Of a stretch of 64,000 nucleotides of DNA, positions 1,527 to 55,462 are shown piece by piece (the stretch's first letter is position 1; each line of letters starts with the position of its first letter). The position numbers and the translations under genes were made by a program. The notes below the pieces were generated by a model. That model saw only the letters and a list, made by a program, of their open reading frames with translations, had not been told where the DNA came from and searched no databases. The stretch spans positions 372,001 through 436,000 of the forward strand of contig NZ_VFIY01000004.1 of NCBI RefSeq assembly GCF_006385175.1, read 5' to 3'. This stretch comes from Emcibacter nanhaiensis (lineage in GTDB: Bacteria > Pseudomonadota > Alphaproteobacteria > Sphingomonadales > Emcibacteraceae).

Positions 1527-3857
1527 GTGTTAAATCGCTTTATTAAAGTCTCATATTTATTTTGTTTATTCTGCTTTGTACCCGGACTGCTGGTTACGGC
1601 TTCGTATGCCCAGCAGAGCGTCTACAGCACCGGGCTGGCTATTTCGGAAATTGTCGTTACCGGCAACCAGAGGATTGAGTCTGAAACCATTAAATCCTAT
1701 CTGATCGTCAACGAGGGTGATGATTATTCCGAGGCCAAGGTGGACGCCTCCCTTAAACGCCTTTTTAATACGGGCCTTTTCTCTGACGTAAAAATTGGCC
1801 GTTCCGGAGACAAGCTGGTCGTGAGTGTGGTGGAAAACCCCATCCTCAACCGGATTGTTTTTGAAGGCAACAAGTCCAAGAAGGACGACAAGCTCTATGA
1901 AGAGATCACCCTGCGTCCGCGTATCGTTTTCTCGCGTGCGAAGGTGAGGGCGGATGTACAGCGCCTGCTGGAGGTTTATCGTCGCGCCGGCCGGTTTGCC
2001 GCGACCATCGAGCCCAAGGTCATTCAGCTGGACCAGAACCGGGTGAACCTGGTTTTTGAAATCAGTGAAGGTCCGAAGAGTAAGATCGGCAAGATCAACT
2101 TCATGGGCAACAAGAAATTCAACAATGATGCGCTGCGCGACGTCATGGCGACCAAGGAAAGCCGCTGGTGGAAGATCCTCACCTCGGAGGATACCTATGA
2201 TCCCGATCGCCTGGCCTATGACAAGCAGCTGCTGCGCGACTATTACCGTTCCCAGGGCTATGCGGATTTCCGCATCACCTCTGCGGTTGCCGAACTGGCC
2301 CACGACAAAGAACATTTCTTCATCAATGTGACTGTCGAGGAAGGCGAGATCTATAACTTCGGCAAGATTGATGTTGAGAGCAAAATCCCGGACATTAAGG
2401 CCGAGGACTTGAAGCCGCTGGTTGTTACCAAAACCGGTGAAACCTATGATTCTACCCAGATTGACAGAACTGTAGAATTCCTCACCGATGTCGCCGGGCT
2501 CAAGGGCTATGCCTTTGTTGACGTCCGTCCGCGTATTCGCCGCAACCGCGAGGAGCGTACGGTTGACATTACCTATGTCGTCAACAAGGCGCCGCGTGTC
2601 TATGTGGAACGGATCAACATTAACGGAAACGTCCGTACCCATGACAAGGTGATCCGCCGTGAAATGAGGATTGTTGAAGGGGACGCCTACAACTCCTCGA
2701 AAGTGAAACGTTCCGAGATCCGCATCAAGAGCCTCGGCTACTTCAAGGAAGCCACGATCGAACAGCTGGAAGGCTCCGCGGAGGATCAGACCGTCCTGGA
2801 GGTTACCGTCGAAGAACAGGCCACCGGTGAGCTTTCGGTCGGGGCCGGTTTCTCAAGCAGTGAAAGCTTCCTGTTTGATTTCAGTGTCGGTGAGCGTAAC
2901 TTCATGGGTAAAGGCCAGAATGTTCGACTGGGGGCCCGTATTTCCTCCTACAGGAAGGAAGTGGATATGAGCTTCACCGAGCCCTATTTCCTGGATCGGG
3001 CTGTTGTTGCCGGTGTTGACCTGTTCCTCAGGGACACCGACTTCATTGAGAGTGACTTCCGCCAGCAGACCTACGGATCTAGCCTGCGCACCGCGTTCCC
3101 GGTAACCGAATATATCGTCATGAGCGGTCGTTATACGATCCGGGTCGATGACGTGGAAACCACCTATGTTTCCAGCAGCCCGTTCCTGGATAATAACGTC
3201 GGCAAGTTTACGACGTCCTCGGTTGGCTACGGCATTTCCTACGATACACTGAACAACCGCCAGCACCCGAGCCGGGGCCAGCGGGTTGTGTTCAACCAGG
3301 ACTTTGCCGGACTGGGAGGAAACGTCTCTTACCTGCGGTCACGTCTGTCCTATGACTTTTATTACCCGCTTTTCGGGAAATGGGTGTTTAATCTTTCTGC
3401 CGAAGGGGGTAATGTGTTCGGCATAAGCGAGGACGTAAGACTGTCTGATCGCTTTTTCCTGGGTAATCCCAAAGTGAGGGGCTTTGAGCAAGGCGGTATT
3501 GGACCGCGTGACGATCTGACCCGGGATGCTCTTGGCGGTAATCTGTACTATACCGGTTCTCTTGAACTGTTTGTACCGCTGGGAGCAGGCGCCCGTGAAA
3601 TGGGTATTGAGGCCAGTGCCTTTGTTGATATGGGGGCCCTGTGGGATATTGATGAGGAGCCTACCCTTGTCAATGATATTACAGGCAACACCCATACAGT
3701 TGTGGCTGATACGGTTTCACCAAGATTGTCTGTCGGCGTTGGATTTTCCTGGATGTCGCCCTTTGGGCCCTTCAGGATTGACTTTGCCAAGGCATTGCTT
3801 AAAGATGATTACGACAAAACGGAATTTTTCCAATTTAACATCGGAACTAGGTTTTAA
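1527..3857 (+). CDS. bamA: Outer membrane protein assembly factor BamA
   Basis: Central subunit of the BAM complex, which folds beta-barrel proteins into the outer membrane. It has an N-terminal signal peptide ending near 'SYAQQ', five POTRA repeats over roughly residues 30-430, and a C-terminal 16-strand barrel to residue 776 that ends in the expected terminal phenylalanine ('NIGTRF'). The start is a GTG at 1527 with an AGGAAA ribosome-binding site 9-14 bases upstream; no better in-frame start precedes the signal peptide. The stop overlaps the skp start (TAATG), so translation is coupled. In related bacteria lpxD follows bamA or skp; it does not here. Confidence 0.97.
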   Translation: MLNRFIKVSYLFCLFCFVPGLLVTASYAQQSVYSTGLAISEIVVTGNQRIESETIKSYLIVNEGDDYSEAKVDASLKRLFNTGLFSDVKIGRSGDKLVVSVVENPILNRIVFEGNKSKKDDKLYEEITLRPRIVFSRAKVRADVQRLLEVYRRAGRFAATIEPKVIQLDQNRVNLVFEISEGPKSKIGKINFMGNKKFNNDALRDVMATKESRWWKILTSEDTYDPDRLAYDKQLLRDYYRSQGYADFRITSAVAELAHDKEHFFINVTVEEGEIYNFGKIDVESKIPDIKAEDLKPLVVTKTGETYDSTQIDRTVEFLTDVAGLKGYAFVDVRPRIRRNREERTVDITYVVNKAPRVYVERININGNVRTHDKVIRREMRIVEGDAYNSSKVKRSEIRIKSLGYFKEATIEQLEGSAEDQTVLEVTVEEQATGELSVGAGFSSSESFLFDFSVGERNFMGKGQNVRLGARISSYRKEVDMSFTEPYFLDRAVVAGVDLFLRDTDFIESDFRQQTYGSSLRTAFPVTEYIVMSGRYTIRVDDVETTYVSSSPFLDNNVGKFTTSSVGYGISYDTLNNRQHPSRGQRVVFNQDFAGLGGNVSYLRSRLSYDFYYPLFGKWVFNLSAEGGNVFGISEDVRLSDRFFLGNPKVRGFEQGGIGPRDDLTRDALGGNLYYTGSLELFVPLGAGAREMGIEASAFVDMGALWDIDEEPTLVNDITGNTHTVVADTVSPRLSVGVGFSWMSPFGPFRIDFAKALLKDDYDKTEFFQFNIGTRF

Positions 3858-4435
3858 TGAAACATTTTACGAAATTCGCCCTGATGGCCGCCATTGTGCT
3901 GGGCATCAACACCTTCTCTTCATTTGAAGAGGCAACTGCCCAGGCATTGCCCAAGGTTGCCATTGCGGTAATTGATAGCCGCAGAATTACAATGGACTCC
4001 GCTGCCGGTAAGGATATTCGCCGTCAGCTCGACGTTATTCGCCAGAAGTTCCAGGCGGAAATCGTGGCCAAGGAAACCGAACTTAAAAAAGAGGAAGAGA
4101 GCCTGTCCAACCAGCGCTCCCTGGTCCCCAAGGAAGTTTACGAACAGAAAGTTGTTGAGTTCCGTGGCAAAGTAGCAGACATGCAGCGTGATGCGCAGGC
4201 CAAAAACCGCCAGTTGGAAGTTGCACTGGTCAACGCCCAGAACAAGCTGCAAAGCGCACTGACCCCGATCTATCAGAAAATCCTCAAAGAGCGCGGCGCG
4301 AATATGATTATCGACAAGAGTCTGGTGATCGAACATAACGCCGCCCTGAATGTGACGGACGAGGTGATCGAACAGCTCGACCAGGTTCTGCCGGCCGTGA
4401 AAGTGGAACTGGTTACGCCGGCTCCCGCGCAGTAA
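3857..4435 (+). CDS. skp: OmpH/Skp family periplasmic chaperone
   Basis: Periplasmic holdase that binds unfolded outer-membrane proteins leaving the Sec channel and passes them to BAM. The 192-residue protein has a signal peptide (cleavage near 'ATAQA'), then a short beta segment and a long charged coiled-coil (about residues 50-130, rich in K, E and Q), as in OmpH/Skp. It overlaps the bamA stop by one base, which supports co-translation with bamA. A strong rho-independent terminator follows about 20 bases after the stop. The tail (VKVELVTPAPAQ) extends slightly past the family core. Confidence 0.88.
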   Translation: MKHFTKFALMAAIVLGINTFSSFEEATAQALPKVAIAVIDSRRITMDSAAGKDIRRQLDVIRQKFQAEIVAKETELKKEEESLSNQRSLVPKEVYEQKVVEFRGKVADMQRDAQAKNRQLEVALVNAQNKLQSALTPIYQKILKERGANMIIDKSLVIEHNAALNVTDEVIEQLDQVLPAVKVELVTPAPAQ

Positions 4436-4452
4436 GCGGTAAAGCTTCTGAG

Positions 4453-4484
4453 AATGCCCCGCTGAAAAGTGGGGCATTTTTATT
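4453..4484 (+). terminator. Rho-independent terminator after skp
   Basis: An 8-bp stem AATGCCCC/GGGGCATT with a 10-base loop is followed by TTTTATTTT. It ends the rseP-bamA-skp transcript, so fabZ needs its own promoter or read-through. Confidence 0.8.
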
Positions 4485-4503
4485 TTCAGGCAGGGGGAAA
4501 CCC

Positions 4504-4528
4504 GGACAATCCCGATCCGGGATTGTCC
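4504..4528 (+). repeat. Perfect hairpin between skp and fabZ
   Basis: An 11-bp perfect stem (GGACAATCCCG / CGGGATTGTCC) with a 3-base loop lies 20 bases after the skp terminator. The downstream bases TTCTTGCC are too poor in T for a classical terminator. It could be a second terminator, a REP-like element or a rearrangement scar. It sits where lpxD is found in relatives. Confidence 0.5.
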
Positions 4529-4605
4529 TTCTTGCCTTTGGAAGAGAAAAGCATTAAGACATCGGCATCAAGATCGATGGTTCAGGAAAAAGGACTGGAT
4601 ACTAA

Positions 4606-5070
4606 ATGAGCGAGGAAACAAAGGATATTCCGACAGCAATTGACGTTCTGCGCATTATGGAACTCATTCCGCACAGATATCCCATGCTGTTGATTGACGG
4701 CCTCAAGGATATTGAAGCAGGCGAGACCGCGGTTGGTGTCAAGAATGTGACCATCAACGAACATTTTTTCCAGGGACATTTTCCCGATCAGCCGGTTATG
4801 CCCGGTGTCCTGATCGTGGAAGCCATGGCCCAGACCGCCGCCGCCATGGTGATGTTGACCCTCGGCCAGGAGGCGGAAGGCAAGATCGTCTACTTTATGT
4901 CCATTGACGGCGCCAAGTTCCGCCGCCCCGTCGTCCCGGGCGACCAGCTCGAACTCCATGTAAAGAAAGAACAGAATCGTCGTAATGTCTGGAAATTCAG
5001 CGGCCAGGGCAAGGTAAACGGCCAGCTGGTGGCGGAAGCGACCTACACGGCGATGATTGTCGAGGACTAA
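4606..5070 (+). CDS. fabZ: 3-hydroxyacyl-[acyl-carrier-protein] dehydratase FabZ
   Basis: Hot-dog fold dehydratase that removes water from 3-hydroxyacyl-ACP in each cycle of fatty acid synthesis. Recognised by 'PHRYPMLLID' near residue 23 and the catalytic stretch with GHFP (active histidine) followed by 'PGVLIVEAMAQ' (catalytic glutamate). At 154 aa it has the usual length. In most alphaproteobacteria fabZ lies between lpxD and lpxA; here it is flanked by skp and a glyoxalase gene, with neither lpx gene. gloA follows after 13 bases and is probably co-transcribed. Confidence 0.96.
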   Translation: MSEETKDIPTAIDVLRIMELIPHRYPMLLIDGLKDIEAGETAVGVKNVTINEHFFQGHFPDQPVMPGVLIVEAMAQTAAAMVMLTLGQEAEGKIVYFMSIDGAKFRRPVVPGDQLELHVKKEQNRRNVWKFSGQGKVNGQLVAEATYTAMIVED

Positions 5071-5083
5071 CAAGGAGGTCTCC

Positions 5084-5476
5084 ATGTCCGAATTCAGCAT
5101 GCTTCATACTATGATCCGGGTCAAGAACCTGGATAAGTCCATCCGCTTTTACTGTGACAATCTGGGGATGAAGCTGCTCAGGAAAAAGGACTTTCCGTCG
5201 GGAGAATTCACCCTGGCTTTTGTCGGTTACGGCGACGAAGACAACAATACAGTGATCGAACTGACCCACAACTGGGGTCGTGAGGAGCCCTATGACCTGG
5301 GCAACGGATTTGGTCACATCGCCTTGGGTGTCAAGGATATTTACGGCGTTTGCGAGAAACTGGAAGCCCAGGGAGTTGACGTTCCCCGTAAACCCGGGCC
5401 GATGAAGCATGGTGGGGCCGTGATCGCCTTCATCAAAGACCCCGACGGCTATATGATTGAGTTGATTGAAAGGTAA
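5084..5476 (+). CDS. gloA: Lactoylglutathione lyase (glyoxalase I)
   Basis: Isomerises the methylglyoxal-glutathione hemithioacetal to S-lactoylglutathione, a detoxification step in the cytosol. The 130-residue protein is one vicinal-oxygen-chelate unit pair with all four expected metal ligands: H in 'MLHTMIRV', E in 'TVIELTHNW', H in 'FGHIALGV' and E in 'YMIELIER'. The short form without the eukaryotic insert suggests the Ni/Co class. The start at 5084 is chosen because AAGGAGG lies six bases upstream; an in-frame ATG 27 bases earlier lies inside fabZ and has no such site. It occupies the slot between fabZ and gltA where lpxA-lpxI-lpxB are normally found. Confidence 0.93.
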   Translation: MSEFSMLHTMIRVKNLDKSIRFYCDNLGMKLLRKKDFPSGEFTLAFVGYGDEDNNTVIELTHNWGREEPYDLGNGFGHIALGVKDIYGVCEKLEAQGVDVPRKPGPMKHGGAVIAFIKDPDGYMIELIER

Positions 5477-5500
5477 TTTTCGACATATGTCAGATACAAA

Positions 5501-5526
5501 AAAAGCCCGGTTATTACCGGGCTTTT
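5501..5526. terminator. Bidirectional terminator between gloA and gltA
   Basis: Perfect 10-bp stem AAAAGCCCGG/CCGGGCTTTT with a 6-base loop and T-rich flanks on both strands, placed between the convergent gloA and gltA stops. It can serve both transcripts. Confidence 0.85.
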
Positions 5527-5546
5527 CTTTTGGTCTGTTGTATGTC

Positions 5547-6863
5547 TTAGCGGTCTTCGACTTTGACGAAAGAGCGTTTCGGTGAGCCGGTAAACAGCTG
5601 ACGCGGGCGACCGATTTTCTGGGTCGGATCCTCGATCATTTCGCCCCACTGTGCAATCCAGCCGACGGTGCGGGCCAGGGCGAACAGCACGGTGAACATT
5701 TCGGTCGGGAAGCCCATGGCTTTCAGGATAATACCGGAATAGAAGTCCACATTGGGATAGAGCTTTTTCTCTACGAAATATTCGTCTTCCAGGGCGATGC
5801 GTTCCAGCTCGCGGGCAACGTCAAGCAGCGGATCGTCATTGATGCCCAGCTCGCTCAGCACCTGGTGGGCAGTTTCCTGCATAACCTTGGCGCGCGGATC
5901 ATAGTTTTTGTAAACCCGGTGGCCAAAGCCCATCAGACGGAACGGGTCGTTCTTGTCTTTGGCGCGTTTGATGAATTCGGGAATATTGTCCACATGACCG
6001 ATTTCGTTGAGCATGTTCAGACAGGCTTCGTTGGCGCCGCCGTGAGCCGGACCCCAGAGAGAGGCAATACCGGCGGCGATACAGGCAAACGGATTGGCGC
6101 CTGAAGAACCGGCCAGACGCACGGTGGAGGTGGAGGCGTTCTGTTCATGGTCCGCATGCAGGGTGAAAATCTTGTCCATGGCTTTGGCCAGAACCGGGCT
6201 CACTTTATAGGGCTCGCAGTTCGGCACGCCGAACGTCATATACAGGAAGTTCTCGGCATAGCTCAGGTCATTGCGCGGATAAACAAACGGCTGGCCGATG
6301 GAATATTTATAAGACATGGCTGCGATTGTCGGCATTTTCGCAATCAGGCGATAGGAAGCGACTTTGCGCTGCACCGGGTCGCTGATGTCGGTGCTGTCAT
6401 GATAGAAGGCGGACATGGCGCCAACCACACCAACCATGACGGCCATCGGGTGGGCGTCGCGGCGGAAACCGGAGAAGAATTTGACCATCTGTTCATGAAT
6501 CATCGTGTGATAGGTGATGTCGTGAGTAAATTTGTCTTTTTCTTCTTTGTTCGGCAGTTCACCGTTCAGAAGCAGGTAGGCAACTTCCATGAAGTCAGCG
6601 TTATCGGCCAGTTCATCGATGGGATATCCGCGATAGAGCAGGACGCCTTCGTCCCCGTCGATATAGGTGATGCTGGATTCGCAGCTTGCCGTGGATGTAA
6701 AGCCGGGATCGTAGGTGAACATACCGGTATCTCTATAAAGTGTCCGGATGTCGATCACATCAGGTCCCACAGAGCCCTGGAAAATCGGCAGTTCAGCGGT
6801 TTTGTCTCCGATCGTCAGCTTTGCCGTTTGACCCGAAACCTTCTTTTCAAATTTATTTGCCAT
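5547..6863 (-). CDS. gltA: Citrate synthase
   Basis: Condenses acetyl-CoA and oxaloacetate to start the TCA cycle. The 438-residue protein matches the type II hexameric bacterial form, with its N-terminal beta domain. The catalytic residues are visible: H in 'GPAHGGANE', H in '[13 protein letters not shown]' and D in 'VDFYSG'. ATG at 6863 has a purine-rich site (GGAAAGGAAG) just upstream. The gene converges on gloA across a shared terminator and has a leader of about 170 bases shared with no other gene. In relatives it follows lpxB. Confidence 0.97.
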
Positions 6864-7037: not shown

Positions 7038-8456
7038 TCAGGCAACCTGGTCCCGTATCCGGGCCAGGCTTTCATCTTTTCCAAGCCAAATCAGAACATC
7101 ATATATTCCGGGTGACATATTGCTGCCGGTCAGGGCGGCGCGCAGCGGCTGGGCAATCTTGCCAAGTTTCAAGTCTTGGACCTGGGCAAATGACTGAATT
7201 TCCTCTTCCAGAGCCTCCAGTTCCCAGTTGTCAATGGCTTCAAGCTGCACGACCAGCTTGTCCAGCATGGCCCGCGCATCGTCCGTGAGCAGCTTTTCCG
7301 CCTTAGGGACCAGGGACAGCGGCCGTTTGGCAAACAGGAACAGGGTGCTTTCGGCCAGCTCGTTGAGATTCTTGGCCCTGGGCTTGAATTCATCCATCGT
7401 GGCGACCAGCATGGCCATTTCGTCGTCGGTCAATGGCCGTTCGATGGCGTTTTCAACCCGTCCACGGATATGAGCGGCCAGGGAGTCATTGCTTTCCACT
7501 TCCCGCATATAGTGGCCGTTCAGGTTTTCCAGTTTGGCGAAATCAAACCGGGCAGGGGATTTGCCGATCCCTTCCAGGCTGAACCACTCAATGGCCTGTT
7601 CTTCAGAAATGATTTCGTCGTCCCCGTGGGCCCAGCCAAGCCGCAGAAGATAGTTTTTCAGGGCGCTGGTGAGGTACCCCATGTCACGATAGGCATCAAC
7701 GCCGAGGGCGCCGTGACGTTTTGACAGTTTGGCTCCGTCGCTGCCGTGGATCAGGGGAATATGGGCATATTCCGGCAGATCCCAGCCAATTGCCTTGATC
7801 AGCTGTGCCTGGCGAAACGCGTTGGTCAGGTGGTCGTCGCCGCGGATCACATGGGTGACGCCCATGTCATGGTCATCGACAACCACGGAAAGCATATAGG
7901 TTGGGGAACCGTCAGCGCGTAGCAGGATCATGTCATCCAGCTGTTCATTGGCGACAGTAACCTTGCCCTGGACATGGTCATCAATGACCTGCTCGCCCTC
8001 CTGGGGAGCCTTGAAGCGGACAACCGGGGCAACGCCTTCCGGGGCATCGGAGGCCGGCCGGTCGCGCCAGCGGCCGTCATATTTCAGGGGACGGCCTTCA
8101 GCCCGGGCCTTGTCGCGCATTTCCTGCAATTCTTCCTGGGAGCAATAGCAGTAATAAGCCTTGCCTTCTGCCAGCAGTTGCTCGGCCACTTCCACATGAC
8201 GGTCACGGCGGGCATACTGATGGACAACTTCGCCGTCATGATCCAGGCCAAGCCAGCTCATGCCGTCATAAATGGCGGCGACGGCCTCGTCAGTTGATCT
8301 TTTCCGGTCGGTATCCTCAATACGAAGCAGGAATTCGCCACCATGATGTTTGGCGAAAAGCCAGTTGAACAACGCCGTTCTGGCACCTCCAATATGAAGA
8401 AAGCCCGTGGGAGAGGGCGCGAAACGTGTCACAACTTTTTTGTTCTGAGTTACCAT
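7038..8456 (-). CDS. gltX: Glutamate--tRNA ligase
   Basis: Class I aminoacyl-tRNA synthetase that charges tRNA-Glu. The N-terminus carries '[14 protein letters not shown]' with the HIGH-type motif, and the KMSKS-type motif appears as 'KLSKRHG'. A cysteine/histidine cluster 'CYCSQEEL' lies in the catalytic insertion. The start at 8456 (MVTQNKKVV...) gives 472 aa, the family length; the open frame runs 29 codons further upstream but that stretch is hydrophobic and unlike any GltX. It lies before gltA on the same strand, with comEC divergent, as in many alphaproteobacteria. Confidence 0.96.
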
Positions 8457-8659
8457 ATAACCCCGATTGAGAAAGTGATAAATTAAACGGTATGTGAAGA
8501 TGCTAATGGCTAGCGGAAATGCTATAATGACCTTCACAGCCAACAGGTTGGCCAGTTTCTAGCACATTTCCGAAAAAAAAAGAAATACTGTTGTGTAAAA
8601 AAAACGATATTTTTTCGCATTGCACATAAAATCAGCGATTTAAAGGGGGATAAATCACG

Positions 8660-47736: not shown

Positions 47737-48379
47737 GGCCCTCTCCATGGATATCAAGCGTCGCGGACTTCTGCTGGTTCTGTCGTCCCCGTCTGGCGCC
47801 GGGAAATCCACCCTGAGCCGCCTGCTGCTGGAAAAAGACGACCAGATAACCATGAGTATTTCGACCACCACCCGGGAACCGCGGCCGGGCGAAGCCGATG
47901 GCGTCGACTATAATTTTGTCACTATTCCAGAATTTGAAGACCTCGTGGCGCAGGATGGCTTCCTGGAACATGCCCGGGTGTTTGACAATTACTACGGCAC
48001 GCCTGCCGCACCCGTCGAGAAAGCTCTGCAACAGGGCCGGGACATCCTGTTCGATATTGACTGGCAGGGCACCCAGCAGCTGGCGCAGAAGGCCAAGGGC
48101 GACCTGGTCCGGGTCTTTATCCTGCCGCCCAGCAAGGATGAGCTGGAACGCCGTCTCAGAGCCCGGGCTCAGGATACGGATGAAGTGGTGGCCAAACGCA
48201 TGTCCAAGGCCAACCAGGAAATCAGCCACTGGGCGGAATATGACTATATCATCGTCAATGAAGACCTGGACCAGGCGGAAGAAGAACTCTTTTCCATCCT
48301 CAAGGCGGAACGGCTGAAGCGGGAGCGCCAGACGGGACTGCTTTCCTTCGTCAAGGACCTGATGGGCGAGGAAGATTAG
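47726..48379 (+). CDS. gmk: Guanylate kinase
   Basis: Phosphorylates GMP to GDP. Walker A '[13 protein letters not shown]', GMP-binding '[20 protein letters not shown]' and the lid region '[18 protein letters not shown]'. 217 aa from the ATG at 47726, which overlaps yicC; an ATG at 47747 ([10 protein letters not shown]) is close to the usual N-terminus and equally possible. The stop overlaps the opposing rsmA stop by four bases, with no terminator between. Confidence 0.95.
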
Positions 48380-49224
48380 GATTCATAGTGCCGCGCCAGG
48401 CGGCAGAAATCCTCTACACTGAGTTCCTCGGCCCGGGCAGTTTCCTTTATTCCGGCAGCTTCCAGTTTCGGCAACGGATCCACACCCAGGCTCTTCAGGC
48501 TGGCGCGCAGCATCTTGCGGCGCTGGCCGAAGGCGGCGCTGACCACCCGTTCCAGGACCTTTTGGTTTGGCGTATCGGGTTTCTCTTCATGGGGGGTGAT
48601 CTGGACAATGCAGCTTGTCACCTTGGGCGGCGGCACAAAGGCCCGGGCCGGGACGTCAAATAGTTTGCGTGCCTCGGCCCGATACTGCGCTAGCACTGAC
48701 AGCCGGCCGTAGGCCTTGCTGCCCGGCTGAGCCACAATCCTGTCGCCCACTTCCTTCTGGAACATCAACGTCAAAGACTTGTACCAGGGCAGCCAGTTTT
48801 CTGCGGTCAGCCATTTGATCAGCAGGGCGGTGCCCACGTTATAGGGCAGGTTGGCGACGATGCGGATGTCCTTGTCCCCGGGATCGCCGATCAATTCCCG
48901 TTCATCCACCTGCATGGCGTCGCCGTGGATGACCTCCAGCCGCCCGGGATAGGCGGCCTGAATCTGCTTCTGGGCCTCGATACAGCGTTCATCCATTTCC
49001 ACCGCAACGACCCGGTAGGCGCCGTTCATCAACAGGGCGCGGGTGAGGGCGCCGGGTCCGGGCCCCACTTCATAAATCACACTGTTGCTGAGGTCGCCGG
49101 CGGAACGGGCGATTTTGCCGGTCAGATTGAGGTCGGTGAGGAAATTCTGCCCCAGAGATTTCTTGGCGGCGAGGCCGAAGCTGTTGATGACCTCCCTCAG
49201 CGGCGGCAGTCCGTCGTCGGTCAT
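48376..49224 (-). CDS. rsmA: 16S rRNA (adenine1518-N6/adenine1519-N6)-dimethyltransferase
   Basis: Dimethylates two adjacent adenines near the 3' end of 16S rRNA as a late 30S assembly check. '[10 protein letters not shown]', SAM motif '[15 protein letters not shown]' and the catalytic '[13 protein letters not shown]'; C-terminal helical domain with '[15 protein letters not shown]'. 282 aa. Start overlaps the pdxA stop (ATGA), the conserved lptD-surA-pdxA-rsmA run. Confidence 0.96.
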
Positions 49225-50246
49225 GCAACACCCCTCTGCCGGGCCATGAATTCGGCGGTTTTGAGCGCCTTGATAAAGCTTTTCGGATTGGCCTTGCCCT
49301 GTCCCGCGATATTGAGCGCGGTGCCGTGATCGGGGCTGGTGCGGATCAACGGCAGGCCGAGGGTTATGTTGACCCCGCCGTCAAAATCCAGGGTCTTGAT
49401 CGGGATCAGGGCCTGATCGTGATACATGCAGACCGCCACGTCATAGGTGGTGCGCGCCAGGTCGTGGAACATGGTATCCGCCGACAGGGGACCGAAGATG
49501 GTCAGACCCTCGGCTTGGAGCTTTTTCAGGGCAGGACCGATAACTTCGATTTCTTCACGACCAATGCCGCCCTCTTCTCCGGCATGGGGATTGAGCCCGG
49601 CCACGGCGATGCGCGGCTGGGCAAGGCCGAAATCCTGCCTCAGGGCCCGGTCAACTTTGCGACAGGTTTCAATAATCAGGTCTTCGGTGACAAGCTTTGG
49701 CACCTCCGACAGGGGGACATGAATGGTCAGCGGAATGACCCTCAGCTCGTCGCAGGCCAGCATCATCACCGCCTTTTGCAGCTCGCTGGTTTTATCGGCA
49801 CACTGCTGGGCCAGATATTCCGTGTGACCCGGGCAGTCAAACCCGGCCCGGTAAAGTACCGACTTCTGGATCGGCGCCGTCACCAGTCCGGCAATTTTAT
49901 TTTCAAAGAAAAGCTTAACGGCCTGATCCAGGGCCTGGATCACCATGGCCGCTGTTGCCTGGGAGGGAGAACCGGGAACCGCCTCGGCGGCGCAGGGAAT
50001 ATCCAGCACCGGCAGGGCCTGATCAAACAGATCGGCACAGTCCTCCGGGGCCTGTATCTCCTGAACAGGCGTCGTAGGGGACAGCTTTTCCAGAATGGCG
50101 GTAGAACCGAGCACAAAGAAAGGAGGAAGCTTTTCCTCCTCCCGGGAGTGCCAGGCCTTGCAGATAATTTCCGGACCGATACCGGCCGGTTCGCCGATGG
50201 AGACCGCCAGTGGTTTTGCTGGATTACCTGTAGTCGATAATGGCAT
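49221..50246 (-). CDS. pdxA: 4-hydroxythreonine-4-phosphate dehydrogenase
   Basis: NAD-dependent step of pyridoxal phosphate synthesis. '[13 protein letters not shown]', the metal ligands in '[10 protein letters not shown]' and '[12 protein letters not shown]', and '[16 protein letters not shown]'. 341 aa. The start at 50246 overlaps surA by 23 bases, so it is translated with surA. Its place between surA and rsmA matches E. coli and other proteobacteria. Confidence 0.95.
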
Positions 50247-51516
50247 CGCGGCGCAGGTCCCGCAAATGACGCCGGGCCATCAGGCCAACGCGCTGGTTTG
50301 TGAGGTTGTTTTGCACGGCCTCATATCCGGGGATATTGATCTCGGGCACCTCCCGGTCGCAAATCACCATCAGCCGGAATCCGTCATCTTCCCGCAGTGG
50401 CTTGGTAGCTGACCCGACTTTGGTCTCCAGCAGGGTCTTGTGCATGGCCGGCGGGAGTTCCCCAACGGTCAGCGTGCCCAGGCTGCCGCTGCTGGTGGCT
50501 TCAAAAGCTTTGGCTTTTGCTTCCACATCGTCACAACCCTCAATCTGTTTCCCCATGGAATCGACCGCTTTTTCAAGAGCGGCGACTTCATTTTCCTTGG
50601 CCCCGGCGGCAATTTTGAAGAACAGGTGCTTCAGCGTCACCTGGGTATCATCGGGACTGGGGGTCAGAACTTTTCGCTTATTTTCGAGCTGCAGGACATA
50701 AAAGCCGTCTTCCCGCTCAATGGGACCAATGATATCGCCCTTTTGCGCACCGCTGACTGCGGCGACAAATTCCTTGGGCAGCTCGCTTTTCATGACCCAG
50801 CCCATATCGCCGCCAACGGCAGAAGTTGTGGAGGCAGAAAACTGCCGCGCCATGATGGGGAATTGTGCGGAACCGCTTTTGAGCTGGTCATAGATGCGCT
50901 GAGCCGCCTGTTTGCTTTCATCCCGGCGGGTATTGTCGGTAACCAGCAGGAAAATTTCCCGGATGCGGTATTCATCCTGGCCTTTGTTGTGCTCGAAACG
51001 CTCGATGGTGTTGTAGATCTCATCATCGGTCACACTGACCTGCGGCATCAGCAGGCCGCCGACCACCTGTTCCCAGGCGAGGCTGGCTTCAATCTGCTTG
51101 AGCATGGATTTTTTATCGATACCTGCCTGGGTAAGCTGTTGCTCGAACTGCTCCGGGGACAAATTGAACTGCTGGGCGTAGCCGGCGAAAGCCTGTTCCT
51201 GCTCCTCCTGGGAGATAACCGCCTTGTATTTTTCTGCTTCACCGATTTTCAGTTTATCGTCAATCAGGCTTTGCAGGGACTGTTGCTGAACATATTTTGT
51301 TTCTTCCTGGTTCAGTTGCTGCCGGCCGGAGGACAGCAGGAACAACAACATGCGCTGTTTGAGATCATAAAGAGAGATGACCTCGTCATTCACAATGGCA
51401 ACAATCTCCTGAACATCATCCAGTTTCTGTTGTTGCTGCTGCGCCCGAAGAGGTGAAGCTGAAAAAACGATGCAGCCGAGGAGGCTGTAACAGATCAGCC
51501 TGAACAAATTTTTCAT
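50224..51516 (-). CDS. surA: Periplasmic chaperone/peptidyl-prolyl isomerase SurA
   Basis: Main periplasmic chaperone for outer-membrane proteins. Signal peptide (MKNLFRLICYSLLG..., cleavage near 'PLRAQQ'), an N-terminal SurA domain with 'IVAIVNDEVISLYDLKQRM', a first parvulin domain ('FSASTTSAVGGDMGWVM') and a second, more divergent one ('SGSLGTLTVGELPPAM'). The start at 51516 gives a clean signal peptide and 430 aa; an ATG 33 bases upstream would add a charged stretch. Directly downstream of lptD, whose barrel it helps assemble in E. coli. Confidence 0.93.
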   Translation of the reverse strand: MKNLFRLICYSLLGCIVFSASPLRAQQQQQKLDDVQEIVAIVNDEVISLYDLKQRMLLFLLSSGRQQLNQEETKYVQQQSLQSLIDDKLKIGEAEKYKAVISQEEQEQAFAGYAQQFNLSPEQFEQQLTQAGIDKKSMLKQIEASLAWEQVVGGLLMPQVSVTDDEIYNTIERFEHNKGQDEYRIREIFLLVTDNTRRDESKQAAQRIYDQLKSGSAQFPIMARQFSASTTSAVGGDMGWVMKSELPKEFVAAVSGAQKGDIIGPIEREDGFYVLQLENKRKVLTPSPDDTQVTLKHLFFKIAAGAKENEVAALEKAVDSMGKQIEGCDDVEAKAKAFEATSSGSLGTLTVGELPPAMHKTLLETKVGSATKPLREDDGFRLMVICDREVPEINIPGYEAVQNNLTNQRVGLMARRHLRDLRRDAIIDYR

Positions 51517-51594
51517 TCCTAGTACTCTCTCAATCCCTATGGCCTTCATTGCCCTTTGTCTCTCTTCTAAACTCTTTTATTTTAAAAATCCAGC

Positions 51595-53790
51595 CTAACC
51601 CAGATTCTTCAGGACAAACCTGAAGTGGATGGTTTTCGACGGAGCAATATCGCGGTCTGACGTAAACCTCTGTTCATACCGCAATCCGAATTCAAGACAT
51701 TCGTCCCGATAGATCACCCCGGCATCATATGAAATGGTTTTTTCGTTCAGAAGGTCCTGCACCCAGCTGCCGTGCACGGTCCACTTTTTGTTCACATAGA
51801 CCTCGGCGCCCATGCCCAGCTCCTGCCGGTTGAGAAGCTCGGTTCCGGTAAGGTCCGTGGTATCCCGGTCCAGGTCTAGATAGCGTACATTGGCCCGGAA
51901 CCATTTCCAGCCGCCGGAAACAAGCATTTCATTGCGCCGCAGGGCAAAGCTGTTTTTATCCAGCCGGAAGCGGTGCACATAGTCCAGATGCTCCCCGAGG
52001 CTGACATCCAGGCGGCCGACAAAGTCCGAGAGGTTGCCGTCAAAGCCGGAACCGACCGGATAGGCTTCGCTGTCATCGACGCGGTAGCTTTGCCCCAACG
52101 TGGCCTGCAGGTTGAACAGGTTGGAATGGAGACTGTAACGCACACCGTAATTTACCCGGGTCCCGCCTTCCCACAGGTCATAGCCATTGTATCGGTTGTG
52201 ATTGAACAGGTTGTTTTCGTCGAATTCGAAGTTGCGGCTGTCTTCGTTGGTGATTTCAGGAATATTCTTGTCATTGGGGGCAACAACCACACTGACCAGC
52301 GGTTCAATGATTTGCTGGGTGCTTTCTCCGAGCCGGATGAAGGGCATACGCCAGTCCAGGGCAAGCATCGGCAGGAGGCGTCCGTAAGTACCGTCTTCAC
52401 CGGCATATTGCTCCCGGTCGGGGTCGTCGGTAGCGCGGTTGTAATAGACATCCCCCCGCAGACTGGCTGAAAAGGTATAAAAGTCACCCATCGGTCCCTG
52501 TATGGGAAGGGTCCATTCGCTGCCGAGACTGGCCCGGTGGGTATCCATGCCCTCCGCACGATAGACTGAAGCCGAGTTGAAATTGGTCTTCAGGGTGCTG
52601 TTCCAGAACAGGGGGCGACTGACCAGATTGACATCCATTGCCGGCAGGGCTTGCGGGGTCTTGTTGATATCATCCACTTCGTCCAGGCCCTGGAAACCAT
52701 ATACACCCAGCGTGGCATAATCGTTACCGTTGAACCATTCGAGCCGGGCGTGGCTCTCCAGCACGTCCGACTTGTCGGCATAATAGCGCCGCAGGTAAGT
52801 ATCGTCACTCACCCAGTGCAGGGTATAGTCCCACTGCCAATCGCCGATGTCGAACGGCTGGAAGGTATCCAGGGTGAATTTGCCGTCGGTCAGGAAGTGA
52901 CCGCGGATCTCGTGATCTCCGGTTTTCTCAAAGTTGTCATCCCTGACATTGACGTTGGAAAATGATCCGTTGATGCGGAACTGGCCGTTGCCCGTATGCT
53001 GGCGGAAGGTGCCGCCGGCGACAATTCCCTCGTCAGAGGAGATGATCGGTTCGAAAGTGAAATCCCGGTGCGGATCGATGGCGACATAATAGGGGATATG
53101 GGCAAACAGGCCGAGCTCGCCTGAACTTCCAATGTCCGGGACAAGGAAGCCGGACATATATTTTACCGTGGGATCCGGGTGGGAAAAGATCGGCGTATAG
53201 AATACAGGAATACCGGCCACTTCCAGCACCACATCCTCATAGCGGATGATATGATCTTCCTCGTCATGGGTAACTTTTTTGGCCCTGATCTGCCACAGAG
53301 GATGTTCCGGACCGTCTTTGAGGCAGATGCGGCAGGGCGAGTAGGCGGCATTGCGCACAATGGTCTGGTGGCCGCGGCGTTCGCCCTCGCGCGCCATAAG
53401 ACGGGAATCGTCGGAAAACAGGACGCGCACATTGCGGATAAAACCGTCCCTGAAACTATCCTCCAGTTCGGCATTTTCCACATAGAGGATATTACCGCTT
53501 CTGTCCCGGATCGTGACCTTGCCGTCCGCTTTGACCATGCCGGTCTTTTCATTATAGGTGACGGTATCAGCCCTGAGCACCCGGCCATCCTGATACAGGG
53601 TGACGTCGCCGCTGGCGATGACTTCTCCGCTGTCGGGATCATATGTCACTCTGTCAGCGGCGAAATCGATCGTCTCCCGCTGATAGTCTTCTTTACTGCT
53701 GTCGCCATCAACATCCGCGCCATGGCTGACCGGGGCCACGAGCGTACAAAGGGAGGTTGAAAGCAATAACAATAAAAATGATTTTTTCAT
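51595..53790 (-). CDS. lptD: LPS-assembly protein LptD
   Basis: Outer-membrane beta-barrel that, with LptE, inserts LPS into the outer leaflet. A signal peptide is followed by an OstA/LptA-like jellyroll (about residues 38-140, 'DFAADRVTYDPDSGEVIASG' and 'LRADTVTYNEKTGMVKADG') and the LptD barrel to residue 731. Cysteines of the usual type are present: 'SPCRICLKDGPEHPLWQIRAKK' region and one near the C-terminus ('YRDECLEFGL'). No domain is lost. It leads lptD-surA-pdxA-rsmA. lptF and lptG, normally between lptD and pepA, are absent; only 181 bases separate lptD from pepA. Confidence 0.94.
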   Translation of the reverse strand: MKKSFLLLLLSTSLCTLVAPVSHGADVDGDSSKEDYQRETIDFAADRVTYDPDSGEVIASGDVTLYQDGRVLRADTVTYNEKTGMVKADGKVTIRDRSGNILYVENAELEDSFRDGFIRNVRVLFSDDSRLMAREGERRGHQTIVRNAAYSPCRICLKDGPEHPLWQIRAKKVTHDEEDHIIRYEDVVLEVAGIPVFYTPIFSHPDPTVKYMSGFLVPDIGSSGELGLFAHIPYYVAIDPHRDFTFEPIISSDEGIVAGGTFRQHTGNGQFRINGSFSNVNVRDDNFEKTGDHEIRGHFLTDGKFTLDTFQPFDIGDWQWDYTLHWVSDDTYLRRYYADKSDVLESHARLEWFNGNDYATLGVYGFQGLDEVDDINKTPQALPAMDVNLVSRPLFWNSTLKTNFNSASVYRAEGMDTHRASLGSEWTLPIQGPMGDFYTFSASLRGDVYYNRATDDPDREQYAGEDGTYGRLLPMLALDWRMPFIRLGESTQQIIEPLVSVVVAPNDKNIPEITNEDSRNFEFDENNLFNHNRYNGYDLWEGGTRVNYGVRYSLHSNLFNLQATLGQSYRVDDSEAYPVGSGFDGNLSDFVGRLDVSLGEHLDYVHRFRLDKNSFALRRNEMLVSGGWKWFRANVRYLDLDRDTTDLTGTELLNRQELGMGAEVYVNKKWTVHGSWVQDLLNEKTISYDAGVIYRDECLEFGLRYEQRFTSDRDIAPSKTIHFRFVLKNLG

Positions 53791-53895
53791 GGGGGCTTGT
53801 TTTACAGATTTTTGTTTTTCTTGCCTACTTTAAATTATTGAAATGACTGTTAAAGAAGTTTTTTGCCCTTGCGGGCATTTGTCAGGCGTTTCTTC

Positions 53896-53924
53896 TTGAA
53901 CATCCGCATGCAGGGGGCTATCTC
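53896..53924 (+). promoter_or_regulatory. Possible promoter for pepA-holC
   Basis: TTGAAC (53896-53901), 17-base spacer, TATCTC (53919-53924), about 45 bases before the pepA start. A TGCCC-TTGC-GGGCA hairpin (53863-53876) lies just upstream between the divergent genes. Confidence 0.35.
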
Positions 53925-53971
53925 TTTTATAAGAACATTCTAGATGTGACATAGACGTAATTGAGGCAAAT

Positions 53972-55462
53972 ATGAAAATAAATTTCCTGAAAAATGAAGT
54001 GCCCCAAAAAGGCAACCTTGTGGTATTGGCCTATAGTGATTGCAAATTGTCAACTTTCGCCAGAAAAATTGACAAGGAAACCGACGGTCAGCTCAGTCGG
54101 GCAATGAAGGTGTCGAAATTCAAGGGCAACTTCGGGGAAATTATCTCCATTCCGGCGCCCTGCGGCCTGAAAGTTTCCAATGTCCTGGTGATGGGACTTG
54201 GCAACGCCGAGGACCTCAAGGAACTGAAGCTGCAGCAGGCGGGCGGTAAAATCATGGCCCGTCAGATGACCTGCGGCGAGGAAGAGCTGTCTGTCGCTGT
54301 CGAGGCCGTCAAGAAAGCGGACATGAGCGCCGAAGACGTCGCCGCCAATATCGCCTATGGCGCCAAGCTCCGTCGTTACCGGTTTGACAAATACCGTACC
54401 AAGGAGGCTGATGACAAAAAGCCGTCGGTTATCTCCTTCAATATCCTCTCGACCGCTGCCGCCAAGGCAAAGAGCCTGTTCGAGCCCATGGACAAGGTGG
54501 CTGACGGCGTGCTGTTCGCCCGCGACCTGGTCACCGAGCCGGGCAATGTGATTTATCCCGAAAGCTATGTGGAGCAGATCAGGGAACTCTCCAGCCTCGG
54601 TGTGGATGTGGAAGTCCTCGGCGAAGACGAGATGGAAGAACTGGGCATGGGTGCCCTGCTCGGCGTTGGCCAGGGCAGCGCCAGCGAATCCCATCTGGTG
54701 ATCATGCGCTGGCAAGGCTCCGACAAGAAAAAAGCGCCGCTGGCCTTTGTCGGCAAGGGCGTTACCTTCGATACCGGCGGCATCAGCCTGAAGCCGGGTG
54801 CCGGCATGGAAGACATGAAATTCGACATGGGCGGGTCAGCCTCCGTTGTCGGCCTGATGAAGGCGCTGGCCGGGCGCAAGGCCAAGGTCAATGTTGTCGG
54901 CGTCGTCGGCCTGGTGGAGAACATGCCGTCCGGGACCGCCCAGCGTCCCGGCGATGTGGTGACCAGCATGTCCGGCCAGACCATCGAGGTCATCAACACC
55001 GATGCCGAAGGGCGCCTGGTGCTGTGTGACGCGCTCTGGTACACCCAGGATCGCTTCAAGCCGAAAATGATGATCGACCTCGCGACTCTGACGGGCGCGA
55101 TACTGATCTCGCTTGGCCAGGAATATGCCGGTATCTTCTCCAATGACGACAAAATTTCCGAACAGCTGTTTACGGCCGGCGAGCAAACCGGGGAAGGGGT
55201 CTGGCGCCTGCCGCTGGGGTCTTCCTATGACGAGTTGATCAATTCCGATATTGCCGACATGAAGAATGTGGGCGGCCGCAATGCCGGCAGCATCACCGCC
55301 GCCCAGTTCCTGCAGCGCTTCGTCAATGATGTTCCCTGGGTCCATATCGACATTGCCGGGACGGCCTGGAAGCAAAAGCCGTCTGACCTCGCCGAAAAGG
55401 GGGCGACCGGCTACGGCGTGCGTCTGCTTGATCGCTTCATCCGGGACAATTACGAAGACTGA
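53972..55462 (+). CDS. pepA: Leucyl aminopeptidase
   Basis: Two-metal M17 aminopeptidase. The C-terminal domain shows 'GKGVTFDTGGISLKPG' (metal lysine and aspartates) and the signature 'NTDAEGRLVLCDALWY'. 496 aa. In E. coli PepA also binds DNA. Its last base is the first base of holC (TGATG), so the two are translated together. The divergent neighbour is lptD, where lptF-lptG would be expected. Confidence 0.95.
   Translation: MKINFLKNEVPQKGNLVVLAYSDCKLSTFARKIDKETDGQLSRAMKVSKFKGNFGEIISIPAPCGLKVSNVLVMGLGNAEDLKELKLQQAGGKIMARQMTCGEEELSVAVEAVKKADMSAEDVAANIAYGAKLRRYRFDKYRTKEADDKKPSVISFNILSTAAAKAKSLFEPMDKVADGVLFARDLVTEPGNVIYPESYVEQIRELSSLGVDVEVLGEDEMEELGMGALLGVGQGSASESHLVIMRWQGSDKKKAPLAFVGKGVTFDTGGISLKPGAGMEDMKFDMGGSASVVGLMKALAGRKAKVNVVGVVGLVENMPSGTAQRPGDVVTSMSGQTIEVINTDAEGRLVLCDALWYTQDRFKPKMMIDLATLTGAILISLGQEYAGIFSNDDKISEQLFTAGEQTGEGVWRLPLGSSYDELINSDIADMKNVGGRNAGSITAAQFLQRFVNDVPWVHIDIAGTAWKQKPSDLAEKGATGYGVRLLDRFIRDNYED

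Follow-up and report, generated by a model that had tools for sequence, protein, structure and literature searches.

How does a bacterium that has lost genes for lipid A, the anchor of lipopolysaccharide (LPS), come to retain LptD, the outer-membrane translocon of LPS? This question is raised by a 64-kb stretch of the Emcibacter nanhaiensis genome (order Sphingomonadales, class Alphaproteobacteria; contig NZ_VFIY01000004.1, positions 372001-436000, or G000:C4:372001-436000 in our numbering of genomes, contigs and loci as G, C and L), taken from an assembly of 3.96 Mb that is 98.7% complete. The whole stretch is called the window below, and coordinates given without a contig or locus refer to it. 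As read from the genes of this organism and its relatives, LpxA, LpxB and LpxC have been lost, a ceramide operon is present, LptA, LptB, LptC and LptD are kept, the canonical LptF-LptG pair has disappeared and a distinct pair lies within the ceramide operon. The interpretation that we favour, with a probability of about two in three, is that ceramide-based sphingolipids would be made instead of lipid A and that the Lpt trans-envelope bridge would have been kept to carry them.

At the first of two excision sites, rseP (114-1490) is followed on the + strand by bamA, the left marker (1527..3857; TIGR03303, E 1.5e-236), and by skp, encoding an OmpH-like chaperone (3857..4435, +; PF03938, E 2.1e-20, without an NCBIfam match). 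A gap of 170 non-coding bases (4436..4605) stands where lpxD is found in most of the lipid-A-positive relatives read. The retained fabZ gene comes next (4606..5070, +; TIGR01750, E 5.1e-58), then gloA (5084..5476, +; TIGR00068, E 2.1e-50), which by gene-order comparison occupies the place of lpxA-lpxI-lpxB, and, on the - strand, the right marker gltA (5547..6863; TIGR01798, E 7.5e-236) and gltX (7038..8543; TIGR00464, E 1.7e-154). Coordinates and family matches thus confirm the layout given in a preliminary description of this DNA, which had also proposed that lpxD, lpxA, lpxI and lpxB were cut out around fabZ. This proposal is borne out. Between bamA-skp and gltA-gltX there is no acyltransferase or disaccharide synthase gene, fabZ and gloA being the only genes there. 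In contrast to this rseP-bamA-skp-fabZ-gloA-gltA-gltX order, the lipid-A-positive genome G028 of the same class (locus L122) has rseP-bamA-skp-lpxD-fabZ-lpxA-lpxI-lpxB-gltA-gltX, in which lpxD, fabZ, lpxA, lpxI, lpxB and gltA are named by NCBIfam; the upstream order tsf-pyrH-frr-uppS-cdsA-dxr-rseP-bamA is common to both genomes. No remnant of LpxD, LpxA, LpxI or LpxB was detected in the 64 kb by tblastn with queries from a lipid-A-positive relative (best E 0.43), and the same queries recovered all four genes in two control loci.

The same absence recurs in relatives: as far as the contigs read (that of G012 stops after fabZ), none of 18 genomes of the order, nor of nine other genomes having serine palmitoyltransferase (SPT) and lacking LpxC, has lpxD, lpxA or lpxI at this site. 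Among 12 lipid-A-positive loci, lpxA follows fabZ in 11, the twelfth (G142) meeting a contig end, and lpxD was recognised before fabZ in nine; it was unrecognised between bamA and fabZ in G097, G113 and G040. Because lpxD went unrecognised in three of these 12 loci, local absence alone would prove little and the weight is borne by genome-wide searches. Two further observations belong to this site. A strong hairpin followed by T residues lies 3' of skp at 4441-4500 (RNAfold, -25.5 kcal/mol), although a scan for consensus terminators did not list it; it may end the bamA transcript, leaving fabZ with a promoter of its own after the excision. In G076, whose genome has no LpxA or LpxC match, a divergent LpxB-like gene follows fabZ (L107:12120-13235, C16; PF02684, E 2e-30) and may have taken on another role in glycosyl transfer.

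Genome-wide profile searches, which covered LpxA, LpxB and LpxC rather than LpxD, LpxK or WaaA, gave no match to LpxC in 20 genomes of the order and none to LpxA or to LpxB in 25, E. nanhaiensis included in each case, while the Escherichia coli and Caulobacter vibrioides controls matched. The genomes of the order span eight families, and five of them (G001, G002, G004, G015 and G016) are single-contig assemblies that are 98-100% complete. LpxC was found in 117 of 142 genomes drawn from the class. Six class genomes without an LpxC match (G037, G077, G080, G105, G145 and G152) do have LpxA and LpxB, so that single-gene misses occur. Given that neither E. nanhaiensis nor the searched order yields LpxA, LpxB or LpxC, at least these three have been lost and not moved: the searches across the order reject a local gap or an assembly artefact, and relocation elsewhere in the genome is rejected for these three proteins only. 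The preliminary description had inferred from the site that lipid A synthesis was lost or moved; loss is supported, and the ceramide genes that the description predicted are present (SPT and its neighbours, see below). Of the genes whose discovery elsewhere it regarded as contrary to the loss, lpxA, lpxB and lpxC are absent genome-wide; lpxD and lpxK lie outside those searches. Its precedent, loss in sphingomonads, holds as well, being mentioned for Sphingomonas in PMC11324152.

In a species tree of nine concatenated proteins from 39 genomes (FastTree, midpoint root), lipid-A-less genomes are interspersed several times among lipid-A-positive ones. Support is 1.00 for each of three groupings: G098 (without lipid A genes) and G113 (with them); G089, G055 and G094 (without) and G046 (with); and the order and G057. 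As drawn from these proteins, the tree implies at least three losses of lipid A if it was never regained, and eight in its present form, some of them on weak nodes.

The second excision site, which the preliminary description had overlooked and which is the addition of the present analysis, lies in the same window and concerns LPS export. The lptD gene (51595..53790, -; PF04453, E 6.7e-57, and a phmmer match to the solved LptD 5iv9) is separated by only 181 bases (53791..53971) from pepA, one marker of the site (53972..55462, +; PF00883, E 9.8e-130), and a comparison of gene order at 44 lptD loci identifies these bases as the canonical place of lptF-lptG in lipid-A-positive relatives. Beyond lptD lie surA, the other marker (50224..51549, -; PF00639 and PF09312), and the conserved neighbours pdxA and rsmA (48376..50246, -; PF04166 and PF00398). 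Thus, whereas lipid-A-positive genomes mostly have lptF-lptG between pepA and lptD, here lptD adjoins pepA directly. Of 15 lipid-A-positive loci, 14 encode canonical LptF and/or LptG at lptD (G113 does not); of 29 lipid-A-less ones, 21 from the order and eight others, none does. No remnant of canonical lptF or lptG was found in the window by tblastn with queries run without a positive control.

The juxtaposition of pepA and lptD suggested a total loss of LptF and LptG, but this was overturned by the finding of a pair at C4:35425-37687, beside spt, the SPT gene. The remainder of the bridge is retained as well. LptD was found in all 36 genomes of the order searched, across eight families (of 40 genomes drawn, the less complete G162, G164, G168 and G170 were left out), with a single match in E. 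nanhaiensis; LptC was found in 23 of 25 genomes and LptF/G in 37 of 40. In E. nanhaiensis, lptC-lptA-lptB lie together on another contig (G000:C18, L143), before a gene for an rpoN-like protein of 512 residues, and this LptC match is the only one in the genome.

The genes beside this pair point to ceramide synthesis. They run aasR (fatty acyl-AMP ligase)-cerR (epimerase)-acpR (carrier protein)-spt, then a DAGK-like gene on the opposite strand, then lptF-lptG-cerS (GNAT) and a DUF502 gene. The SPT matches model NF047603 at E 4e-172 with 572 bits, below the curated cut-off of 670 bits; this cut-off is exceeded in only four of 40 genomes of the order, and the Caulobacter protein is also below it. 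E-values of 1e-110 or below are reached in 38 of the 40. Relatives of aasR, cerR or acpR adjoin spt in 29 of 30 loci, the thirtieth being the E. nanhaiensis locus itself, which is cut there and continues in L029; the same holds for all 16 loci read from the 17 class genomes with a strong SPT (G089 being unread). Of the 36 genomes of the order in which both spt and lptF-lptG were found, 32 have them no more than 4.4 kb apart; the distance is 315 kb in G174, and in G013, G164 and G175 the two are on different contigs. Beyond the drawn genomes, a pair of the same type as in E. nanhaiensis, hereafter sphingolipid-type, lies downstream of spt on the same strand in 25 of 80 named SPT loci (within stretches of at most 10 kb), and a canonical pair in none of the 80. 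The four best of these loci encode SPTs 80-81% identical to that of E. nanhaiensis; the others reach at most 62%, and most of their titles name sphingomonads, erythrobacters or Kordiimonadaceae. GTDB places the sphingomonads in the same order as E. nanhaiensis.

Several features of these clusters vary. The protein with a weak DAGK_cat match whose oppositely oriented gene separates spt from lptF (L028:17910-18869), possibly a lipid kinase, has a relative in 20 of 30 spt loci read. Eight other clusters carry, judged by length, a gene of 505-535 residues between lptG and cerS; of three such genes scanned (507-523 residues; L035, L036 and L146), two match the flippase-like family PF01943 (Polysacc_synt), which fits a flipping step. 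In L036 a fatty acid hydroxylase gene adjoins the gene scanned. The E. nanhaiensis cluster has neither the flippase-like nor the hydroxylase gene of its relatives. Among the named loci, RPSH01000019.1 (L198) is titled Bacillus sp. and encodes an SPT 58% identical to that of E. nanhaiensis; its label or assembly is probably wrong.

The pair in the ceramide operon differs in kind from the pair that was lost. We built a tree of 98 LptF and LptG proteins (FastTree; matches aligned over fewer than 220 residues were dropped, and L049, L050, L060, L061, L069, L073 and, where no longer stretch of the genome in question was read, L001-L020 stand outside it). This tree separates F from G and, within each, canonical from sphingolipid-type proteins, with support of 1.00 for both canonical clades and of 0.99 (F) and 0.91 (G) for the sphingolipid-type ones. 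Its lipid-A-positive labels include G077, G105 and G145, which have LpxA and LpxB and no LpxC match. None of the LptF or LptG proteins from lipid-A-less genomes, namely 15 genomes of the order and G055, G057, G076, G094, G111 and G149 (the G098 pair being unread), falls in a canonical clade. Four genomes with both LpxC and SPT (G044, G045, G141 and G142) have one pair of each kind, the canonical one beside lptD. Two placements are peculiar. The spt-side LptF and LptG of G141 (L159, C19), which is of another order, fall within the clade of the E. nanhaiensis order, possibly through horizontal transfer of the sphingolipid cluster, and in G014 (L034, C3) two additional genes that are not beside spt encode LptF-like proteins, which form a long branch within the sphingolipid-type clade.

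At the residue level, seven conserved basic columns of canonical LptF and nine of canonical LptG are absent from the sphingolipid type, and 200 random relabellings gave none. Among 20 canonical proteins, 18 have a basic residue at the column of E. coli LptG K40 and 18 at that of K41, whereas among 25 sphingolipid-type ones the residue is acidic in 16 and 18, respectively. Both lysines touch bound LPS in a cryo-electron microscopy structure, at its 4'-phosphate and inner core (PMC6744409). The loss of these residues is a hint, and only a hint, of a changed cargo; as proof of it, it was not upheld, for reasons given below.

We infer the sphingolipid cargo and each step of its transport as follows. 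A sphingolipid would be made and flipped at the inner membrane, extracted from it by LptB2 with the sphingolipid-type LptF/LptG, relayed by LptC and LptA and inserted into the outer leaflet through an LptD that has changed little. A species with both lipids would send them through a single LptD from two permease pairs; after loss of lipid A its permease pair would be useless and would be deleted, while LptD would still be needed. A broader version of this scheme, for and against which we find the balance even, is that LptB, LptC, LptA and LptD form a cargo-neutral lipid lift whose cargo is chosen by LptF/LptG alone, alphaproteobacteria having first acquired a second, sphingolipid-choosing pair, fed one LptD from both, and then discarded lipid A with its own pair several times independently.

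How the genes are distributed across the class bears on this scheme and on a first alternative. In the 142 class genomes we took an E-value of at most 1e-110 as a strong SPT match, which 17 genomes have, 11 without LpxC and six with it. The six contain 4, 5, 2, 4, 4 and 4 LptF/G matches and one LptD match each; at least four LptF/G matches are thus found in five of six genomes with LpxC and SPT versus one of 111 with LpxC and without SPT (Fisher p 2e-7; here and below the tests ignore kinship). The single case among the 111 is G040 (L144), with four LptF/G matches, LpxC and no strong SPT. Nine of the 11 SPT genomes without LpxC have two LptF/G matches, and G084 and G089 have none. Sixteen class genomes lack LpxA, LpxB and LpxC; G041 and G092 (incomplete, without an LpxC match, LpxA and LpxB unsearched) and G076 (weak LpxB match) were kept out of this set, and the LpxC-negative genomes G121, G129, G145, G149 and G152 were derived by elimination. 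Within the 16, LptD is present in nine of 10 genomes with SPT versus none of six without (p 0.0009), and LptF/G in eight of 10 versus none of six (p 0.007); LptC is likewise found in none of the six.

Under the alternative that retains most credit, though we consider it unlikely, lipid A was lost and Lpt was kept for another envelope glycolipid or polysaccharide anchor, the position of lptF-lptG by spt reflecting an inherited co-regulation of envelope genes. LptF/G matches occur in Thermus composti, Deinobacterium chartae and Thermotoga maritima, where LpxC has none, so that such permeases do exist outside LPS makers, and the ceramide genes of G084, which stand without Lpt, also speak for it. 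However, among the LpxC genomes the second LptF/G set, which is the marker compared here, tracks SPT, and the spt-side LptF and LptG form clades of their own.

A number of observations weigh against the sphingolipid-carrier interpretation itself. One comes from G084 (L164 and L108 on C1; one contig of 5.4 Mb, 100% complete), which has aasR-cerR-acpR-spt-cerS and no match to LpxA, LpxB or LpxC, and in which profile searches gave no match to LptC, LptD, LptF or LptG; it apparently has, to judge from these genes, a sphingolipid-type envelope without an Lpt bridge. Ceramide operons can thus occur in the absence of Lpt. G097 (L163, L274) has lipid A genes, a ceramide operon and the canonical LptF/G pair only. 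Lpt with a special pair is therefore not the sole way to live with a ceramide operon. LptC gave no match in G017, G019, G076 and G149. The six lipid-A-less genomes without SPT and Lpt are small (0.6-1.7 Mb), and genome reduction thus confounds the LptD contrast, while SPTs far from the NF047603 model would escape the count. Conversely, E. coli also matches that model at the 1e-110 threshold; the score alone is therefore not specific, and identification relies on the neighbours. As for the residues, the sphingolipid type has four (LptF) and two (LptG) basic columns of its own, the K40E/K41E substitutions in E. coli LptG leave growth unaffected (PMC5548808), and at the positions that correspond to the essential E. 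coli K34 and R136 even the canonical LptG of alphaproteobacteria has acidic residues. Tolerance of the former and acidity at the latter make the argument from basic residues weak, and since the two types are old paralogs some residue difference is expected.

Another alternative, which we judge very unlikely, is that the sphingolipid takes a different route (AsmA-like or Mla-type proteins, or diffusion) and that the Lpt parts are leftovers in the course of being lost. G084 and the few other lipid-A-less genomes in which LptC was undetected speak for this, but the state of LptD speaks against it. Besides its presence in all 36 genomes over eight families, its conserved columns are common with those of lipid-A-positive LptD: in an alignment of 28 lipid-A-less and 14 lipid-A-positive sequences (G046, a fused reading frame, and G019, a split gene, were left out), only one column is conserved yet different between the two groups. 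The columns retained by at least 95% of the 42 sequences include those of C153 and C698 of the E. nanhaiensis protein; a second cysteine stands three positions after the first (C156 in E. nanhaiensis), and only G016, G174 and G076 lack it there. The phmmer alignment of the E. nanhaiensis protein with 5iv9 runs over residues 57-709, starting in the N-terminal domain and ending with the barrel. Moreover, decay would hardly have spared LptD while the adjoining lptF-lptG were removed at 21 of 21 loci of the order. A separate, sphingolipid-specific LptD was also considered and is not supported, as genomes have, with few exceptions, a single LptD match each and the LptD tree, judged by eye, agrees broadly with the species tree. 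G127, with matches on contigs C65 and C9, is the sole genome of the class draw with two, and in G019, G160 and G171 LptD is in two pieces, probably from split genes. Finally, it is barely credible that lipid A genes persist at another place, in divergent form or in sequence that the assembly lacks, for although the genome-wide searches were confined to three Lpx proteins and single-gene misses occur, LpxA and LpxB are both missing from 25 of 25 genomes of the order and LpxC from 20 of 20, single-contig assemblies included, and the controls and lipid-A-positive relatives match.

If sphingolipids are indeed the cargo, the lipid of the outer leaflet would have been changed without changing the exit pore, which bears on how a different lipid can make up an outer leaflet for which LPS is considered necessary. 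Lineages without lipid A and with LptD amount to a natural knock-out, so the cargo of LptD there should not be LPS. Two elements are already published: the loss of LPS from sphingomonads and, for Caulobacter, the LptF2/LptG2 proposal. In the literature searched, which lay outside most subscription papers, bioRxiv and supplements, we found nothing that describes LPS-less alphaproteobacteria in which LptD persists with an exchanged LptF/LptG pair. The main text of a survey of lipid A genes (PMC3087551) names Wolbachia and its family among alphaproteobacteria without them and nowhere uses the word Sphingomonas. A 2024 study of Caulobacter crescentus (PMC11324152) states the sphingolipid route to the outer membrane as unknown; it describes a sphingolipid cluster, CC_1168-CC_1152, that includes LptC2, LptF2 and LptG2, proposes CC_1156 and CC_1155 (LptF2 and LptG2) as phosphosphingolipid carriers, a proposal untested there, and reports cluster orthologs for Sphingomonas wittichii and Zymomonas mobilis.

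Compared with these systems, E. nanhaiensis is at once familiar and distinct. In the sphingomonad envelope, glycosphingolipids replace lipid A and LPS is absent. E. nanhaiensis resembles it, here from genes alone, in lacking LpxA, LpxB and LpxC and in having ceramide synthesis genes; unlike in the earlier sphingomonad account, the loss is traced to two excision sites in one window, spans eight families and recurs in other orders. With the canonical LPS machinery (LptB2FGC-A-DE) it shares LptA, LptB, LptC and LptD, the run lptC-lptA-lptB before the rpoN-like gene, and lptD before surA-pdxA-rsmA, whereas the canonical LptF/LptG and LpxA, LpxB and LpxC have gone, LPS being excluded as cargo by genes only. 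By gene order, its aasR-cerR-acpR-spt ... lptF-lptG-cerS run matches CC_1165-CC_1162 ... CC_1156-CC_1155-CC_1154 of Caulobacter as given in PMC11324152. The Caulobacter cluster holds LptC2; the one LptC match of E. nanhaiensis adjoins lptA-lptB. Caulobacter has lipid A genes, whereas E. nanhaiensis has no LptF/LptG besides the sphingolipid-type pair, which would have to cooperate with its single remaining LptD.

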